Source of the DNA: a bacterium
Lineage (GTDB): Bacteria; UBA9089; CG2-30-40-21; SBAY01
Assembly (NCBI GenBank): GCA_040757115.1
Contig: JBFLYA010000054.1
Location: 1 to 20,359, forward strand
Length of the DNA stretch: 20,359 nt
Reading direction: 5' to 3'
Shown here in pieces: positions 969-20,056 of this stretch. The notes beneath the pieces are model-generated. The model saw only the letters and a program-made list of their open reading frames with translations, made no database searches and had not been told where the DNA came from. Numbering within the stretch: the stretch's first letter is position 1; each line of letters starts with the position of its first letter. The position numbers and the translations under genes are program-made.

Positions 969-1042
969 GCCCTGCTATCTCAAACGGAGAGAGAGCTCGA
1001 CTGCTAATCGGGAGGTTCCGGGTTCGATCCCCGGGCAGGGCA
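969..1042 (+). tRNA. tRNA with anticodon GCU and short (class I) variable loop
   Basis: The cloverleaf folds completely. The acceptor stem GCCCTGC/GCAGGGC (969-975, 1035-1041) is perfect and the discriminator is A1042. The D stem is TCTC/GAGA (978-981, 991-994) with a loop containing A14 and GG (986-987). The anticodon stem is CTCGA/TCGGG (996-1000, 1008-1012) with one T:G pair, and the loop CTGCTAA holds anticodon GCT (1003-1005). The variable loop is only five bases (AGGTT). The T arm is CCGGG/CCCGG with loop TTCGATC. CCA is not encoded. GCU reads serine codons AGU/AGC, but bacterial serine tRNAs carry a long variable arm recognised by SerRS, and this one does not. It also has A at position 20, C35, U36 and A73, which are arginine-tRNA identity bases. 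The amino acid is therefore uncertain. Confidence 0.85.
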
Positions 1043-1128: not shown

Positions 1129-1134
1129 TAGAAT

Positions 1135-1213
1135 AGCAGTCGGGTTCAACTATCTCCAGTTGAGATAGTAGTAGAAAAGCAGGAAGAAAATTTCTTTCTG
1201 CTTTTTGCTTTTT
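1135..1213 (+). ncRNA. Probable small RNA of about 80 nt
   Basis: The predicted transcript runs from the start site of the promoter at 1100-1128 to an intrinsic terminator. It holds a perfect 8-bp hairpin, ACTATCTC/GAGATAGT (1149-1156, 1162-1169), with the 5-base loop CAGTT, followed by the terminator hairpin. No known RNA family was recognised. The ends are estimated from promoter geometry, not measured. Confidence 0.5.
1175..1213 (+). terminator. Intrinsic terminator of the small RNA
   Basis: A 13-bp stem (1175-1187 with 1193-1205, core AGCAGGAAGA/TCTTTCTGCT, one G:T pair), a 5-base loop, then a T-rich tail broken once by GC. Confidence 0.6.
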
Positions 1214-1888: not shown

Positions 1889-2092
1889 ATGCAATCTGCT
1901 TTAAATCTATCTAAAGAAATTATCAATTTAAGCAAAAGAACCAGGATAATAACTTTTGAGACAGTTAGGGATAATAATTTCGATCCGGTAGAGGATATGA
2001 TTGGGAGTATTACCCTTAACCATCCTATTGATGTCGAGTCGCTATTAAAAGAAGGAAGTTTTTACGGTGTCAGCAAGGATTTTGAAATTTGA
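1889..2092 (+). CDS. Putative antitoxin upstream of a PIN-domain gene
   Basis: This 67-residue protein begins MQSALNLSKEIINLSKR. The ATG at 1889 is chosen because GAGG sits at 1877-1880 and the promoter's -10 box (1860-1865) overlaps the longer GTG reading. I do not recognise the family. The amphipathic N-terminal helix and the position before a PIN toxin gene, with a 26-bp overlap, suggest an antitoxin. The palindrome in its promoter could be its operator. The antitoxin role is inferred from context only. Confidence 0.6.
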   Translation: MQSALNLSKEIINLSKRTRIITFETVRDNNFDPVEDMIGSITLNHPIDVESLLKEGSFYGVSKDFEI

Positions 2093-2333
2093 TGCTTCGC
2101 TCCCTAATGTTATCTTCTGGGATGCAAATTTTGTTATTAACTCTTGCGTTACTGAGGCTAAATACTTCTCAGAATGCAGTAATCTTCTTCGGAAAATAGC
2201 AAAAAGAAAGATTACTTCAGTCATTTCTACTTTAATTCTGGAAGAATCCTGGTACGGTCTATTAAGAATCAAACTAATTAAAGAGTATCAGGACAAATGG
2301 CTCGACAAACTCAGAATGGTATTATTAGATTGA
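2067..2333 (+). pseudogene. PIN-domain toxin, N-terminal half only
   Basis: The 88-codon frame starts with GTG after GAAGGAAG. Residues 15-23 (VIFWDANFV) carry the first catalytic Asp of a PIN nuclease, and ILEESW (about 57-62) fits the second acidic site. PIN toxins run to about 130-150 residues, and the second half with the remaining acidic residues is absent. The stop is followed after only about 20 bases by the next gene's ribosome-binding site, so there is no room for a frameshifted remainder. A deletion joining two toxin-antitoxin modules is the simplest explanation. The product probably has no nuclease activity. Confidence 0.65.
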
Positions 2334-2366
2334 AAGAAAAAAATATTAATTTCAAGGAGAACAAAC

Positions 2367-2564
2367 ATGAAAGCAAAAGAGTCATTAACCGATTATTTAG
2401 ATTATCTCCAAACTGACAATATTATAGAAGCCACTCAACAAGCACGTAAAAAGAGCATGCATCTTTTACAAGACCAGGGTATTGCTGTTATGGCTCTTTT
2501 AATCTCTAACTTCATTACAGAAGCAATTGACCATCCTGAATTATTATTAGAGAAGGCATCATGA
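2367..2564 (+). CDS. Putative antitoxin of a PIN toxin
   Basis: This 65-residue protein is preceded by AAGGAG. It is rich in Leu, Glu and Gln and predicted to be largely helical, with a hydrophobic stretch VMALLISNFI (about 41-50). Its stop overlaps the ATG of the following PIN gene (ATGA), the translationally coupled order typical of vapBC operons. No DNA-binding fold was recognised with confidence. Function is inferred from position. Confidence 0.65.
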   Translation: MKAKESLTDYLDYLQTDNIIEATQQARKKSMHLLQDQGIAVMALLISNFITEAIDHPELLLEKAS

Positions 2565-3028
2565 AATGTGTTTATATTGATACCTCCGTAGTGAATATCA
2601 ATCTGTTTGGTACAAAGAAAGAACCAGAGCGATATTCTATAGTAATGAATTTCTTTAATCGACTTAATAGTCAAGAATTTGAAGGATTAATCTCCCTATA
2701 TACCCTTCAGGAAATATATGCCTTTTGTGAAGATAACTTTCCATTAAACTATGTAAGAAAAGTAGTTAAATTGTCCTTTCAAGAATTACTAAAGAGTGAA
2801 TTGCAAATAATTCCTTTATTAAAAAGATCCGAACGATTAGTTCACCAAAGAAAATTTCCGATCTCAGATTTATCTGACCAACCTCATGCAATTTTAGCCT
2901 ATCTGAATGGGTGTGATGCTATTATTACTTATGATGACCACTTTAGAGATATCGGATCTATCATTAAAGTTTTTACGCCAGAAGAATTCTTGGATATACT
3001 TGACAACAAACTTTTGCAGGAAATTTAA
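2561..3028 (+). CDS. PIN-domain ribonuclease toxin (VapC-like)
   Basis: This 155-residue protein has a PIN fold: YIDTS with Asp7, LQEIYAF with Glu51, SDQPHAILA with Asp106, and the closing ITYDDHF with Asp125/126. These are the acidic residues that hold the metal ions in PIN nucleases, and all appear present, so the toxin looks intact. Known family members cleave tRNA or rRNA and are held inactive by the partner antitoxin. The gene overlaps the antitoxin by four bases, and AGAGAAGG within the antitoxin's last codons serves as ribosome-binding site. Confidence 0.85.
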   Translation: MKCVYIDTSVVNINLFGTKKEPERYSIVMNFFNRLNSQEFEGLISLYTLQEIYAFCEDNFPLNYVRKVVKLSFQELLKSELQIIPLLKRSERLVHQRKFPISDLSDQPHAILAYLNGCDAIITYDDHFRDIGSIIKVFTPEEFLDILDNKLLQEI

Positions 3029-8634: not shown

Positions 8635-8952
8635 AACTTGATAATTCGTAACTATTTAGCCAAGTGAAGTGAAAGGTAAGGAGAGGTGGAGAAAGGAGAG
8701 AATTGGAGAAAAGTACAAAATCCCACATCCCAAATTATAAATCACAAACAAATTCCAAATTCAAAATCTATTTGTTTCCCCTGTAGATAATATCAACGGG
8801 GTTTAGAGTTTTGGTCATTGGATTTTAGAGTTTGTTTGATTTTTGGTGCTTGTGATTTGGTACTTCTTTTTATTCTCTCCATTTCCCCATCTTCTCCCTT
8901 TCTCCTTACTTACACAACTTCAGATGTCTAAAGTGTTACGATAATTCAAGTT
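8635..8952. mobile_element. MITE family C with 5-bp target duplication GTAAT
   Basis: This 318-bp element has long imperfect inverted ends. The left reads AACTTGATAATTCGTAAC; the right, reversed, reads AACTTGAATTATCGTAAC. Further pairing follows through TTTAG, TGAAG and GGTAAGGAGA-like purine tracts to AAATCACAAA in the middle. GTAAT flanks both sides (8630-8634 and 8953-8957). No protein is encoded. The right end overlaps the stop codon of the nucleotidyltransferase-HEPN gene. Confidence 0.6.
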
Positions 8953-9827
8953 GTAATTTTTTGCTCAAATTGCTTAAACTTTTCTCGACACTTTCTCAAC
9001 GCCAACCTGCGTAGTTTCTTTACACGCTCTTCAAGGTATTCAAGTTCACGCTTGGTAATTTTATATGATTTCTTGTATCGTGCACCAATATATGCTTCCT
9101 TCAGAAGCTCAAACAGATGTTTTTCTTTGCCTTTTTCCCGTGGGAAAATCTCGGCGAAATCCGTATCAATTTTTTCCATTCGCTCTGTTAGTTTCTCTAA
9201 ATCGTGTGTTCTTGGTTTGTAGCTGGTAAGTACGAGAGAAGCACCAGTGTATAGGTGTTCGGTGGTCTGGTGGAGATGGAAAGCAGCCTCATTATTCCAG
9301 CCTTTCTTAAAACTAGATTCATAATACCAAAAAAATTTCTTCGCCTTCGGAAACCAGATTTTATAATCCTCCTTTGCCAGTGCCCTTTTTATTCCTGGGG
9401 TAAGCTTCCTTGCTCGTACCAGTTGGAATCGTCTTGAGTCATAAAGGAGTATGCCTTCCTTTTTGACATCAGCATAGAAGTATCTGCCAACTGAGAGTTG
9501 TTCATTGACATGCTCAATATCTTCCCTAATAAGTTTTACTGGTGTATGAATCTTACGTCTGATTTGATTTTCAACTTTATTCCAAATCTTATAATCATCT
9601 ACTATCTTCTCCTCCTGCACAATCACCATAATGTCAAAGTCACTTTCATAATTCGTGAAATGTTCCTCTTCAGCATCATATCGAAAATCGCGCTCCACGA
9701 AGTCTCCACGAGCATAACTGCCAAACAGAATAATCATCTCGACTTTTGCTGCTGCACGAATGATTCCAACGATATCTTCGAGTTCCTCTCGTTTATACTC
9801 CGGAAGATGGTTTATGCTTGTTTTCAT
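8946..9827 (-). CDS. Nucleotidyltransferase-HEPN fusion protein (MNT-HEPN)
   Basis: This 293-residue protein has an N-terminal minimal nucleotidyltransferase domain: LFGSYARGD (35-42) with the Gly-Ser pair, and SDFDIMV with Asp63 and Asp65. About 20 residues, rich in acid and aromatic side chains, separate the two motifs, more than in most MNT proteins. Residues from about 150 form a HEPN domain with HLHQTTEHLYTGA and ARYKKSY (about 248-254). In separate MNT/HEPN pairs the transferase modifies and silences the HEPN RNase; here both are in one chain. GAGGA precedes the ATG. The final codons and the TGA stop lie at the junction with MITE family C, so the original C terminus may have differed. 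Confidence 0.85.
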   Translation of the reverse strand: MKTSINHLPEYKREELEDIVGIIRAAAKVEMIILFGSYARGDFVERDFRYDAEEEHFTNYESDFDIMVIVQEEKIVDDYKIWNKVENQIRRKIHTPVKLIREDIEHVNEQLSVGRYFYADVKKEGILLYDSRRFQLVRARKLTPGIKRALAKEDYKIWFPKAKKFFWYYESSFKKGWNNEAAFHLHQTTEHLYTGASLVLTSYKPRTHDLEKLTERMEKIDTDFAEIFPREKGKEKHLFELLKEAYIGARYKKSYKITKRELEYLEERVKKLRRLALRKCREKFKQFEQKITT

Positions 9828-9966: not shown

Positions 9967-10248
9967 TTAGATAGAATCTATCTGTGATTTGTTTTTCTTT
10001 GTTGCTAAGTTCCAAAAAGTCAAGTTGTTTGGAAGTGAGTATAGTTTTCCCCATAGTAAATACTCCAAAAAGCGCCTTTTATAAGGGTCAATATGGGATT
10101 TTATCCTCTCCCAGGATTCTATTACTTCTGTCCGATTAAGTTTTTCCCCATCCAATCCATAATTTATTAATTGAGTTAGCTTCCACAGTCTAAATTCTTC
10201 TGGTTTTTCCTTCATAAACTTAGCTTCATCTATCACCCAGTTATACAT
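9967..10248 (-). CDS. Small protein of unknown function, possible toxin-antitoxin partner
   Basis: This 93-residue protein contains FRLWKLTQLINYGLDGEKL, RTEVIESW, DPYKRRFLEYLLW and a short tail. GGAGG lies nine bases before the ATG. The WRLxxLINYGLxGEKL...KRxFLxxLLW pattern resembles small proteins (possibly DUF6922) that I recall next to AbiEii-type nucleotidyltransferase toxins; the family name is from memory and uncertain. It sits between a nucleotidyltransferase-HEPN gene and a broken PIN gene. No catalytic residues are visible. Confidence 0.6.
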   Translation of the reverse strand: MYNWVIDEAKFMKEKPEEFRLWKLTQLINYGLDGEKLNRTEVIESWERIKSHIDPYKRRFLEYLLWGKLYSLPNNLTFWNLATKKNKSQIDSI

Positions 10249-10281
10249 AGTTTTATTCCTCCAGAATGCCTAAGAGATGCT

Positions 10282-10465
10282 CTAATGCTTTAGTTCTAAT
10301 ACTCTTTGATAAACCTCATCTCCAATATAAAATTTCTTCTTACGGAGTTCATCTATATAAACCTTAAGGTCTTTTTCTATTAATCCCAATTCTTTACCAT
10401 AAGCAAGTACGCCTACTTCTCCTATTACTTCTAATCCTAATTGTATAGCCTTAGTTCTCAATTCG
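10282..10465 (-). pseudogene. PIN toxin C-terminal fragment (DUF3368 type)
   Basis: On the minus strand this reads LRTKAIQLGLEVIGEVG, then VLAYGKELGLI and ELRKKKFYIGDEVYQRVLE, which matches the C-terminal third of DUF3368 PIN toxins (A-x-LGL-x-VIGTLG, then DEL...GFYISDELY). The catalytic N-terminal two thirds are missing. Upstream the frame runs into a truncated nucleotidyltransferase copy in a different reading frame, so two unrelated gene pieces were joined. Confidence 0.75.
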
Positions 10466-10717
10466 AGGTCTGACCCCCAATCCCCCTTTTGCCTTTCCTT
10501 CGTCCTGTACAATCACCATAATGTCAAAGTCACTTTCATAATTCGTGAAATGTTCCTCTTCAGCATTATATCGAAAATCGCGCTCCACGAAGTCTCCACG
10601 GGCATAACTGCCAAACAGAATAATCATCTCGACTTTTGCTGCTACACGAATGATTCCAACGATATCTTCGAGTTCCTCTCGTTTATACTCCGGAAGATGG
10701 TTTATGCTTGCTTTCAT
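10451..10717 (-). pseudogene. Truncated duplicate of the nucleotidyltransferase gene
   Basis: The first 71 or so codons repeat the start of the gene at 8946-9827, with only about five base differences over roughly 210 bp (10506-10717 against 9615-9827). Both active-site motifs (LFGSYARGD and SDFDIMV) are retained. After IMVIVQDE the homology ends and the frame continues through unrelated sequence to a stop. The rest of the transferase and all of the HEPN domain are lost. The ribosome-binding site has been moved away by a MITE inserted upstream, so efficient translation is unlikely. The high similarity implies a recent duplication. Confidence 0.8.
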
Positions 10718-11016: not shown

Positions 11017-11319
11017 TCATCTTACCTTCCCTTCAATTTCTTCATTAGTTAAATTAATTATTGGAATACCTTCTTCTTCTAATATTTTTTGAGTTTCCCA
11101 GTAGTTCAAACCAAGTAATTCTGCTGTCTCTCTTAAAGTTATCTTCCTATTCTTGTAAGCAGTAATAACTTCTTGCTTCATTATAGACCCTAATCCCATT
11201 GCTATCAATTGTCGTATAGCTGTTGAGACATCCTCATAGTGTCTTTTTGCGTAATAATTAACTTTCTGTAACAGGTCATCATTTAAAACTGTTCTTACTT
11301 CTATCATCTTTTGTTCCAT
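11017..11319 (-). CDS. UPF0175-type antitoxin
   Basis: This 100-residue protein has an N-terminal segment (about 5-45) that looks like a ribbon-helix-helix DNA-binding region. The C-terminal stretch AYKNRKITLRETAELLGLNYWETQKILEEEGIP (about 54-86) is the UPF0175 signature. It directly follows the PIN toxin gene: the toxin's TAA is immediately followed by this ATG. The toxin's last codons (ATGGAGGAAGGA) act as ribosome-binding site, so translation is coupled. The toxin-first order is the reverse of classic vapBC. It probably binds the direct repeats downstream of the operon promoter. Confidence 0.8.
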   Translation of the reverse strand: MEQKMIEVRTVLNDDLLQKVNYYAKRHYEDVSTAIRQLIAMGLGSIMKQEVITAYKNRKITLRETAELLGLNYWETQKILEEEGIPIINLTNEEIEGKVR

Positions 11320-11808
11320 TTATCCTTCCTCCATTATTAAAGATTTATACTTCTCTAAGTTACTCTTAGAAAGCCTCTTATAATAATATAAGTTTTGTAG
11401 GTAGGTAACATATTCATCTCTACTCAAAATCTCCTTTTTTACTCTCTCAAATAAGAACTCAGGAGAATTCATTACTCTGAATCCTTCAAGTTTTGCTTTT
11501 CTATATAATTCAGTATCGTCAACAAATACATAATGAGCATTTTTATCTTTAGCTAATAAAACTACTTGAGTATCAACTTTTGCAATATTATGAAATTCTT
11601 TTTCACTTTCTTTCTTAATTATCTTTTGATCAAACACTCTTTTAATAATTATAGCATCAGAATAACCAGAGATAATACCATCCTCTACACATTCTCTATA
11701 AACTCCTTCTGGACAGATTATCTTTCCTTCTATTTCCGTTAGCCACTCAATTACTCCAATTTTTGATAAAGATATCAACATTGAAGTATCAATAACTATT
11801 TTCTTCAT
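11320..11808 (-). CDS. PIN-domain ribonuclease toxin (DUF3368-like)
   Basis: This 162-residue protein starts at the ATG at 11808, preceded by AAAGGTGA. A TTG five codons upstream is less likely. PIN acidic residues are Asp7 (VIDTS), Glu39 (VYRECV), Asp79 (KVDTQVVLLA) and Asp97/98 (YVFVDDTELYRKA). The core is complete, so the nuclease should be active. Pairing with a UPF0175 antitoxin is the known arrangement for DUF3368 PIN toxins. A fragment of another such toxin lies downstream at 10282-10465. Confidence 0.85.
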   Translation of the reverse strand: MKKIVIDTSMLISLSKIGVIEWLTEIEGKIICPEGVYRECVEDGIISGYSDAIIIKRVFDQKIIKKESEKEFHNIAKVDTQVVLLAKDKNAHYVFVDDTELYRKAKLEGFRVMNSPEFLFERVKKEILSRDEYVTYLQNLYYYKRLSKSNLEKYKSLIMEEG

Positions 11809-11909
11809 TAAGTCACCTTTCAATTATACTCCTGCTAATGCACAGGATGGAGTAATAACTTCTACTTTAGTATCTACTAATAGCCCAAGAAATATACTTA
11901 CTATAAAAC

Positions 11910-17056: not shown

Positions 17057-17352
17057 GTAACCGTTCACCGCACAGACACAGAGACGCAGAGAAAAACACA
17101 CCCCTAACCCCTCTCAAGAGGGGAAAATCTATGGACGAGACGCTTAACATCCCTGATTTTCATCAGGGCAATCTCTTGAGTACAACAACATTAAAATTGA
17201 TTAACAAATCTGGCTTGCCTCCTGAACATTCGGTAAGCAGGTCATAAGTATTTCCATATCTGCATCAATGAATTTTTTATGTGTTCTAATTTATTTCTAT
17301 GTCTTCTCTGTTCCTCTGCGTCTCTGTGGTAAATTACCACCTGAACGGTTAC
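17057..17352 (+). mobile_element. MITE family A, copy 2
   Basis: This 296-bp element is nearly identical throughout to 1485-1778, with ends GTAACCGTTCA (17057-17067) and TGAACGGTTAC (17342-17352). The flanking bases extend the inverted repeat to TCGGTAACCG/CGGTTACCGA. No exact 8-bp target duplication is visible here. Reading frames through it (for example 17032-17247) are not genes. Confidence 0.8.
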
Positions 17353-17481
17353 CGAATTTCCAATTTTAACTTCATTTTCTAACCGCAAGATTTCAAACAA
17401 AAGTGAACCGTCCCGAAAATCCGTGAATCGTGTCCCGTATCCGTATCCGTAGTTAGGCTGACGGTTTTTCCTCCTGTTGTC

Positions 17482-17634
17482 CTCTGCCTTCTGCCCTCTG
17501 CCCTCTGCCTTCTGCCCTCTGCCTTCTGCCTTCTGCCTTCTGCCCTCTGCCCTCTGCCTTCTGCCCTCTGCCTTCTGCCTTCTGCCTTCTGCCCTCTGCC
17601 TTCTGCCCTCTGCCTTCTGCCTTCTGCCCTCTGC
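17482..17634. repeat. Heptamer satellite, 21 full copies of (C/T)TCTGCC plus a partial copy
   Basis: This is a strictly periodic 7-bp tandem array with variation almost only at the first base (C or T). It ends ten bases before the priA stop codon. The strong strand asymmetry (pyrimidine-rich plus strand) and the tract length make it prone to slippage. Open frames through it on the minus strand are only a by-product of the period. Confidence 0.95.
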
Positions 17635-17644
17635 TTTTCCTTTC

Positions 17645-20056
17645 CTATAACATTCCAATCGGGTCAACATCTACATTTATCTTCAAATACCCCGGTATAG
17701 TTATTTGGTCTAATGCTGATTTCACTAATTCCCGAAGGGGTTTAGGATTACCTTTAAGAAGTATTTGCCAGCGATATTCTTCCTTTATCTTAGTTAAAGG
17801 GCAAGGGGCTGGACCTAAAATAATCACCGTTTTATCCTGGTTATTACTTCGGAGAATACTACCGAGCGTCTGGGCTAATTTAATCGTTTCCTCACCATTT
17901 TTACCTTTGATGATAATATTAAGTAAATGGGTAAAAGGTGGGTAATTAAGTTCTTTTCTAAATGTAATCTCTTGAGAATAAAAGGTGGCATAGTCCTGTA
18001 TCTTAGCCGACTGAATAGTAGAATGTTCAGGATTATAGGTTTGAATAATAACTAATCCGGGATTTTGCCCTCTTCCGGCGCGACCAGCAACTTGCGTCAG
18101 TAATCCAAATGTCCGTTCTGCGGCACGAAAATCAGGCAGATTTAACCCCACATCTGCTGAAACTACCCCAACTAAGGTTACATTGGGAAAATCTAATCCC
18201 TTAGCAATCATTTGTGTGCCAACTAAAATATCTATTCCGCCTGATTTAAAAGAAGAAAGAATATTATCATGAGCCATTTTAGGTGTAGTTGTATCTAAAT
18301 CCATTCTTGAAATTCTTGAATGTGGGAATAATTTTTGTAATTCATCCTCAACCTTCTGCGTTCCTGTGCCAGAATACCGAATTTGTGTCCCCTGACACTT
18401 AGGGCAGAATGCGGGTGCTATTTTTTGAAAATTACAATAATGGCATTTGAGCATTTTGTCTGCAAAATGATAGGTTAAAGTAATCTCACAATGCGGACAT
18501 CTCATCGTCATCCCACAATCACGACATTGAATAAAGGTGGCAAATCCTCGCCGATTTAAGAAAATAATGACTTGCTGTTGTTTGTTTAGTCTGTCCAATA
18601 TTGCCTCTTTTAATTTTAGGCTAAAAATACTCCGATTACCCATTTTGAGCTCTTCTTTCATATCGATTATTTCTACCTCTGCTAAAGGTCTATGGTCAAT
18701 TCGAGATGGGAGATGGAGATAGTAAAATTTACCAATGGATGTGTTGTAATATGCCTCTACGGATGGGGTGGCAGAACCTAAAATTACCACAGCATCAGTA
18801 AACTTTGCTCGCATAATCGCTACATCTCGAGCATGGTAGCGTGGGACAGAATCATATTGTTTATAAGTAGTTTCGTGTTCTTCATCAATAACAATCAGAC
18901 CTAAATTTTTCATAGGGGCAAAGATAGCCGAACGAGCACCAATAACGATTTCTGCTCCACCTTCCTGTATCCTTCGCCATTGGTCATAGCGTTCGCCTGG
19001 AGATAATTTACTGTGTAAAATGGCTACTTTTCCGCCAAAGCGGGCTTTAAATCGCTCAACTGTCTGCGGAGTAAGTGATATTTCTGGCACTAAAACAATC
19101 ACCCCTTTTCCTATCTTCAAAACCTCATCTATGGCTTGAAGATAAACCTCTGTTTTACCACTCCCGGTTATGCCATGCAATAAAAATACCTTAAACTCAC
19201 CTTTTTTAATATATTCTTTGATAGCATTTAAACTCTCAGTTTGCTCTTTGGTCAATCTTAGAGGGTAAGAAGGTTTAAAATATCTATCTTTGTAAGGTTC
19301 CCTATCTATTTGCTTTGAACAAACCATAAGAAAATTTTTATTTATAAGATTATTAATCGGGGTGAGGCTTGTTTGTGCTTTTTGGGCTAATTTATCTGGC
19401 TCAAGAGCCCCATTTTGATGCAGGATTTCAATAATCGAACGCTGTCTTTGAGTCAGTGTTTGCGCCAATATTCTTTCCTTAGGCAGGGCTAATTTGATTA
19501 CCTTTATCTCTTTGGGTTTTAAAGCAGGCTTTTTAACACGCTCGATCTCTATCAACTCTTTCTGGATAAGACTGTTTATCGCTGAATAAATAGGTCTTTT
19601 CTTTAAAATGTTTAATAACTTAGCTAAACTTATCTCTTTTTCTTTTTTTATTAACTCCAGAATCTTAAATTGTAGAGGTGCCTTTTTATCCAGACCCGGC
19701 ATATCTTTCAGGTATTTAATTCTGGTTTTTGTGTTGATATTAATACCCGGTGGTAGAGTCGATTCAATTACCTCGCCCCAGGAGCAAAGGTAGTATGTGG
19801 CTATCCATTGGGTTAGTTTTAACATCTCATCAGATAGAACAGGCGTGCTATCCAGAACATCTAAAATATCTTTTATTTCATAGTCAGCACAGATAGGACT
19901 GGTAAGGACATTAACGATATATCCAGTCAGGTGGCGCCGATGGCCAAAAGGAACTAAGACCCGTTTCCCAATGGCTATATCTTTTTCTAATTCCTTTGGA
20001 ACCGCATAGGTAAAAGTTTTATCAATAGATAAACCCGAAACTATTTCGATGAACAT
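17645..20056 (-). CDS. priA: Primosomal replication-restart helicase PriA
   Basis: This 803-residue, full-length protein has AGGAG before its ATG. The N-terminal DNA-end-binding domain (about 1-100) begins [16 protein letters not shown] and contains [10 protein letters not shown] winged-helix region follows, then the helicase core: Walker [12 protein letters not shown] (294-304), DEEH box at 391-394, and LGSATPS (426-432). Eight cysteines at 511, 514, 520, 523, 538, 541, 551 and 554 bind two zinc ions. The C-terminal helicase lobe has [15 protein letters not shown] and QVAGRAGRG. PriA recognises stalled forks and reloads the replicative helicase. It appears intact and is the main housekeeping gene in the window. 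Its 3' end lies beside the heptamer satellite. Confidence 0.97.

Follow-up and report, generated by a model that had tools for sequence, protein, structure and literature searches.

Introduction

Type VIII toxin-antitoxin systems, exemplified by SdsR/RyeA, pair an RNA toxin with an RNA antidote, and type I toxin-antitoxins with a trans-encoded antisense RNA consist of neighboring toxin and small RNA genes, each with its own promoter. In CreTA, the RNA toxin CreT sequesters rare tRNAs via a mini-ORF, and the antitoxin CreA, with sequences resembling CRISPR repeats, needs Cascade for transcription repression (PMC8501985). In allo-tRNAs (8/4 and 9/3 forms; Mukai et al. 2017, reviewed in PMC7609411), the identity of the tRNA body (Ser, or Ala via G3:U70) is not that of the anticodon. 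In E. coli, the amino acid inserted by SerRS- and AlaRS-type 8/4 and 9/3 tRNAs bearing a foreign anticodon (Ser and Ala) follows the body and not the anticodon (PMC7609411), and 8/4 tRNAs that SerRS charges actively suppress missense mutations when their anticodon is not that of Ser (PMC7609411, PMC7590224). No antisense partner of allo-tRNAs is mentioned in the review (PMC7609411).

Here we analyzed a 20,359-nt contig (JBFLYA010000054.1 of assembly GCA_040757115.1; hereafter, the window) from a bacterium of the UBA9089 lineage. It encodes a tRNA whose body and anticodon disagree, as in allo-tRNAs, followed by a predicted antisense RNA directed at this tRNA. We consider it moderately likely that a mistranslating tRNA is restrained here by a dedicated antisense RNA, the two forming an RNA-RNA module resembling a toxin-antitoxin system. 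As in type VIII systems, both partners are RNAs with adjacent genes and separate promoters (by consensus match only), one is complementary to the other, and the antidote would act by base pairing; the differences are that the proposed toxin is a tRNA acting via decoding and that the antidote gene lies in tandem, not opposite. The long, imperfect complementarity specific to its own partner recalls type I systems, but the target is a tRNA and not an mRNA. With CreTA the locus would share an RNA toxin working through tRNA or decoding, and the logic of addiction; here, however, the tRNA itself would be the toxic RNA, with an antisense partner, and no CRISPR-like array was reported within positions 1-2600 of the window. 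Two related tRNAs described below (genomes G001 and G013) have the 8/4 branch, 6-bp D stem and long variable arm of allo-tRNAs, whereas the window tRNA is an ordinary 7/5 class I molecule of Arg type and thus falls outside the 8/4 or 9/3 forms. A literature search returned no tRNA-directed antisense RNAs or tRNA toxins matching this arrangement, and an earlier mention in the original allo-tRNA paper is possible.

A class I GCU tRNA with arginine-type identity bases

The tRNA gene occupies positions 969-1042 of the forward strand. ARAGORN called it at 969-1043 with anticodon gct, and 969-1042 belongs to the Rfam tRNA family RF00005 (59.7 bits, against a gathering threshold of 29). Read directly, the sequence gives a 7/5 class I cloverleaf with a 7-bp acceptor stem (GCCCTGC/GCAGGGC) followed by U8 A9, a D stem TCTC/GAGA with D loop AAACGGAGA (G18 G19 A20), an anticodon arm CTCGA-CTGCTAA-TCGGG, a 5-nt variable loop (AGGTT), and a T arm CCGGG-TTCGATC-CCCGG with the conserved T loop. 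The 3' end has A73 and then CAACAG, so CCA is not encoded, unlike in nearly all other tRNAs of the genome. The gene is single-copy and is preceded on the same strand by a candidate promoter, TTGACA-17-TAATAT at 931-959, identified by consensus match only. A weak point is that the minimum-free-energy fold of the tRNA alone is not the cloverleaf, which is not unusual for an unmodified tRNA.

The GCU anticodon reads the Ser codons AGY, and the molecule has neither the long variable arm nor the G73 that bacterial SerRS uses, having AGGTT and A73 in these places. It does carry the tRNA-Arg identity set (A20, C35, U/G36, A/G73), in the form A20/C35/U36/A73 described for arginine (PMC9976931), although GCU does not read an Arg codon. 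The closest tRNAs in the genome are tRNA-Arg UCU, UCG and ACG (25.0, 24.6 and 24.0; next 19.8), and the anticodon loop, CTGCTAA, differs from that of tRNA-Arg(UCU) only in having G34 instead of U34. A20 is found in all five Arg tRNAs of the genome and is rare among the others, though not exclusive to Arg, as tRNA-Thr(GGU) has it as well. The initial annotation, which had reported a full cloverleaf with its own promoter, a GCU anticodon combined with a five-base variable loop, and arginine-type bases at positions 20, 35, 36 and 73, is borne out on all of these points.

The genome (4.3 Mb in 462 contigs, 99.87% complete, contamination 1.41) yielded 48 tRNA covariance matches, from which ARAGORN recovered a nearly full tRNA set. 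This set includes the long-arm tRNA-Ser(GCU) that the initial annotation had proposed to look for, a canonical 93-nt gene with encoded CCA, and the genome's SerRS has the tRNA-binding N-terminal domain (PF02403, 116 bits). The window tRNA is therefore an extra one, and the situation named as speaking against the initial annotation (a sole GCU tRNA together with a SerRS lacking the arm-binding region) does not apply. The single ArgRS is ordinary. A change of the genetic code was not supported, since AGY codons are common in the genes of the window and a P-loop serine of PriA is encoded by AGT. Judged from its sequence, this is an extra, Arg-type tRNA reading Ser codons, and it may be charged by ArgRS.

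An antisense RNA gene downstream of the tRNA

The repeat finder returned inverted repeats at 972-993/1150-1171 and at 993-1009/1131-1147, which together make up a single antiparallel duplex linking the tRNA to same-strand sequence located 90 to 130 nt farther downstream. The duplex has 33 bp (972-983/1160-1171, 12 bp; 986-990/1153-1157, 5 bp; 993-1006/1134-1147, 14 bp; 1008-1009/1131-1132, 2 bp) and a predicted energy of -50.7 kcal/mol, which was reached in 0 of 1000 shuffles of either partner. With composition corrected for, it was the most extreme of 2694 windows in 20 kb (-7.1 SD, next -3.9), and only the window tRNA among the tRNAs of the genome gave strong pairing (z -9.7, next -2.9). The pairing is well supported.

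The antisense stretch begins 3 nt past a second forward-strand promoter match, TTGACA-17-TATATT at 1100-1128 (11/12 consensus positions, TG before the -10 box), and ends in a predicted intrinsic terminator at 1174-1216 on that strand (15-bp stem, T-rich tail, fold z -4.3). The predicted RNA of ~75 nt (1131-1206, forward strand; start near 1132-1136, as judged from the -10 box) opens with an anti-anticodon block at 1131-1147, whose partner is tRNA 993-1009 (3' side of the D stem, anticodon 5' stem and loop). An anti-D-arm block follows at 1153-1171, with tRNA 972-990 as partner (5' side of the acceptor, D stem and loop), and this block also makes the RNA's own hairpin. Another forward-strand hairpin, AGAGGAA...TTCCTCT at 1047-1078 (z -2.4), lies between the tRNA and the antisense-RNA promoter. 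The arrangement does not correspond to a T-box or other tRNA-sensing leader, in which an mRNA leader would carry a specifier loop and an antiterminator pairing with NCCA, as there is no Rfam T-box match and a long antisense duplex is found instead, and no ORF follows closely after the terminator on that strand. No Rfam family was found for the antisense RNAs. We read 1131-1206 as encoding a ~75-nt antisense RNA and hardly anything besides, with expression predicted from its own promoter. The Arg-type identity and AGY misreading as a likely outcome, both put forward in the initial annotation, are supported, but the adjacent gene had been missed, and it shifts the reading from an odd tRNA to a two-RNA module.

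Recurrence in related genomes

Similar pairs occur in three related genomes, G001 (same genus), G003 (same family) and G013 (another family of the phylum), with a TTGACA promoter, an antisense stretch and a terminator downstream of each tRNA. In the G001 member, the anticodon GAU (Ile) sits on a Ser/Sec-type tRNA that begins with GGAG and has an 8/4 branch, a D stem of 6 bp, a long variable arm and G73. The antisense RNA of this member has two complementary blocks, the first against the 5' stem and loop of the anticodon arm, the second against the T arm, the variable arm and the 3' stem of the anticodon arm (0/500 shuffles for each). The G003 member, found in a downstream-antisense screen of 103 tRNAs from four genomes, combines the G3:U70 and A73 of alanine with the anticodon GUC (Asp); its antisense RNA starts TAATGACGGGCATGAG, and its tRNA has C33 in place of U33, which counts against the module. 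The G013 member, found by a pattern scan for T arms followed by a promoter, is a Ser-type 8/4 tRNA with GAU, of the same type as that of G001. Canonical tRNA-Ile(GAU) and tRNA-Asp(GUC) are also present in G001 and G003, respectively. An Acido-Lenti-1 RNA (RF01687) lies on the same contig as the G013 member (L456 64-109), and a 61-nt degenerate tRNA-like sequence (25.4 bits) was seen both in the window genome, G000 (L047, G000:C31:7499-7559), and in G001 (G001:C32:6510-6570).

When the G001 and G013 pairs were compared, 27 of 27 aligned positions paired in G001 and 26 of 27 in G013, with eight intermolecular base pairs altered on both sides and one on one side; this covariation rests on two homologous but diverged sequences aligned by hand. 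It is the strongest single argument that selection may be keeping the pairing.

These compensatory changes also bear on the possibility that the locus is functionless debris of evolution, left by a tRNA-Arg copy that mutated and was partly duplicated beside itself in inverted orientation. The window antisense stretch does resemble an inverted partial copy of the tRNA, and inverted duplication is its probable origin; a silent relic would for a time look similar, a point against the module. Local rearrangement is indicated by a direct repeat whose left copy (725-878, the 5' end of a PQQ-repeat gene plus sequence upstream) and right copy (1238-1390, 513 bp away), both reported by the repeat finder, enclose the tRNA/antisense cassette and appear to mark a local duplication of that part of the gene. 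Debris would not be expected to recur with independent sequences in about ten loci, to place the antisense just past a promoter and end it in a terminator, or to show compensatory changes between G001 and G013, and we find this account very doubtful, giving it the least weight. In the same region, positions 122-587 hold 120-bp tandem repeats coding PQQ/beta-propeller blades.

Distribution and specificity of the pairs

Scans for class I GCU tRNAs that set no condition on the flanks gave 12 ARAGORN-confirmed loci besides the window, four of them with a downstream antisense: L091 in a Pyrinomonadaceae MAG (Acidobacteria group), and L105, L116 and L117 on viral contigs, L105 and L116 carrying the same tRNA. 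Two scans that demanded TAGCAG downstream, and are biased by design, added the viral-contig members L472, L466/L473 and probably L505. Their complementarity extends well past the 6 nt demanded, to 14 nt in L472 and L466, and L505 has three complementary blocks. Every GCU member has A20 after G18G19; for the A20-bearing class I GCU tRNAs L071, L106, L113 and L100, no antisense partner was found within 1 kb. The tRNA of L105/L116 has U73, a poor fit to ArgRS, and the acceptor stem of L116 contains a mismatch. L466/L473 (IMGVR_UViG_3300031578_000096) comprises two copies of one GCU tRNA plus antisense unit on a single contig; in each spacer, a possible hairpin contains TTAGCAGAC, which matches the anticodon loop.

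The pairing is specific to each locus. In an 11 x 11 table, every antisense RNA had its own tRNA as the partner of its longest complementary block (9-14 nt, against mostly 4-8 nt for other tRNAs), with a tie between L105 and L116 due to their shared tRNA and a block of 12 nt also between the L091 RNA and the window tRNA. In 9 of the 11, the own-tRNA block lies against tRNA nt 24-39, in the 5' stem and loop of the anticodon arm, and begins 4-8 nt after the RNA start predicted from the -10 box. Support varies among members: the pairing energy of L117 is weak (z -0.6) and its 12-nt block was reached in 0/500 shuffles, and the L505 block is weak (12/500). Ordinary tRNAs gave almost nothing in screens of 103 tRNAs, 212 tRNA-like/promoter neighbors and 458 tRNAs. 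Among the last, which were distinct tRNAs with at least 150 nt downstream, seven had two complementary blocks of at least 8 nt, namely the window, G001, G003, G013, L105, L116 and one that was rejected on inspection. BLAST of the locus against relatives, phages and plasmids returned just generic tRNA or promoter similarity.

Several candidates were set aside. The apparent antisense of L152, an Arg(UCU) tRNA, is explained by a neighboring tRNA gene, that of L301, also Arg(UCU), lies within an ORF and has no promoter, and L458 is a chance match in a phage gene. ARAGORN found no tRNA in L459-L462. L360 and L158 scored strongly for pairing but have no tRNA at the place or are pyrimidine-rich, and the minus-strand signals of L096 and L100 are same-orientation copies, not antisense genes. 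In L096, L101, L107 and L114, from very different bacteria and viral contigs, tRNA-like sequences combine an odd D-arm region with an anticodon and T arm (CTTCGACTGCTAATCGAGAGGTC-like) that are normal.

In nearly all members the likely amino acid and the anticodon appear to disagree (Arg/Ser, Ser/Ile, Ala/Asp), less clearly so for L105/L116 given U73. We lean, if only slightly, toward these loci representing a widespread, mobile class of RNA-RNA toxin-antitoxins, in which a tRNA of mismatched identity is the toxin and an anticodon-masking antisense RNA the antidote. Some viral-contig members lie among phage-like genes (methylase-, holin-, HNH-, terminase- and tail-like; names assigned by eye), as would be expected if phages used an extra tRNA for counter-defence, resisting or mimicking the targets of host anticodon nucleases, with the antisense RNA timing its use. 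A replacement tRNA should, however, match anticodon and amino acid, and the four members in one bacterial phylum and that on the Pyrinomonadaceae contig sit among host-like genes, which makes counter-defence quite unlikely.

The flanking palindromes and the PIN operon

Just upstream of the tRNA promoter are two overlapping copies of a palindrome, 11 bp apart (TCAGAAATGTTTTAGA at 903-918 and TTAGAAATGTTTCTGA at 914-929), which together probably form an operator. Within 1 mismatch of TCAGAAATGTTTCTGA, the TTAGAAATGTTTCTGA palindrome has one other copy in the genome, at 1808-1823, upstream of the promoter of a PIN operon (TTGACA-17-TATTAT, 1837-1865, consensus match). The operon is possibly co-regulated with the tRNA gene. 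Its first gene is a 67-aa ORF of unknown family (1889-2092, forward strand) with an orthologue in L135 of the sister genome G001, followed by a truncated PIN-domain protein (2067-2333, forward strand; 88 aa vs 174 aa in the sister genome). G001 has two exact palindrome copies 474 bp apart (L135 1475-1490 and 1001-1016), one fronting the orthologous PIN operon and the other a different tRNA. In appearance, the promoter of the G001 tRNA is a duplicated copy of that of the PIN operon.

Some PIN toxins cut tRNA anticodon loops, and in G000 and G001 the tRNA gene has the palindrome and the promoter duplication in common with the PIN operon, which could mean that the tRNA has a non-translational role, as a decoy or substrate of the neighboring PIN-domain (VapC-like) nuclease, with the antisense RNA controlling the decoy. 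This is very unlikely, as the PIN gene is truncated in the window, none is evident beside the G003 and G013 members, and none appears, by eye, in the ORFs listed for L091, L472 and L117. Given its apparent absence beside other members, we rejected the PIN operon as an essential partner of the module; no tRNA was found near the remaining PIN homologues.

The rare palindrome common to the tRNA and PIN promoters in G000 and G001 also points to regulation of the tRNA, and together with the two separate promoters of tRNA and antisense RNA it would suit regulated mistranslation, in which a missense tRNA retained by the host would diversify the proteome under stress or in a phase-like manner and be tuned by the antisense RNA. 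We regard this as unlikely, since the different tRNAs and anticodons found at the matching locus of two congeneric species, the presence on viral contigs and the patchy occurrence are more in keeping with a selfish or defence module than with a conserved function of the host.

The window also encodes several PIN-type toxin-antitoxin-like gene pairs (2067-3028 and 11017-11823, of which 11320-11823 matches the PADLOC candidate family PDC-S70) and a nucleotidyltransferase-HEPN fusion protein (8946-9827; PF18765, PF05168), with a broken second copy of the 5' part of its gene at 9967-10717. An ORF at 17242-17670 contains a tandem EGRRQKA-like repeat, is of low complexity and is probably not a real protein.

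Discussion

The reading we prefer is a toxin-antitoxin-style element, suggested by the two promoters, the tandem genes, the patchy occurrence, the sequence turnover at a matching locus and the presence on viral contigs. In the window, the tRNA body would be recognized by ArgRS and the anticodon would read AGC/AGU, so that the charged tRNA would insert Arg where Ser is encoded, poisoning the proteome. Neither SerRS nor AlaRS depends on the anticodon, and ArgRS needs C35 and position 36 (PMC9976931, PMC7609411); the mismatch should therefore be tolerated by each of the implied synthetases, as GCU keeps C35 and position 36.

The antisense RNA, predicted to be transcribed from its own promoter, opens with sequence complementary to the 5' stem and loop of the anticodon arm and then matches another part of the tRNA (the D arm in the window). 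Its binding would unfold the anticodon and D arms and neutralize the toxin, either by stopping charging and decoding or by marking the tRNA for degradation. If the antisense RNA were short-lived relative to the tRNA, loss of the locus or shut-off of host transcription would release free tRNA, and the element or its host might benefit through addiction or abortive infection.

If true, this would be, to our knowledge, the first known case of dedicated antisense RNAs against tRNAs, and the first in which decoding errors serve as a toxin under control. It would also give natural missense tRNAs (allo-tRNAs and class I GCU tRNAs) a testable role, and would offer synthetic biology a ready-made on/off switch for missense suppression.
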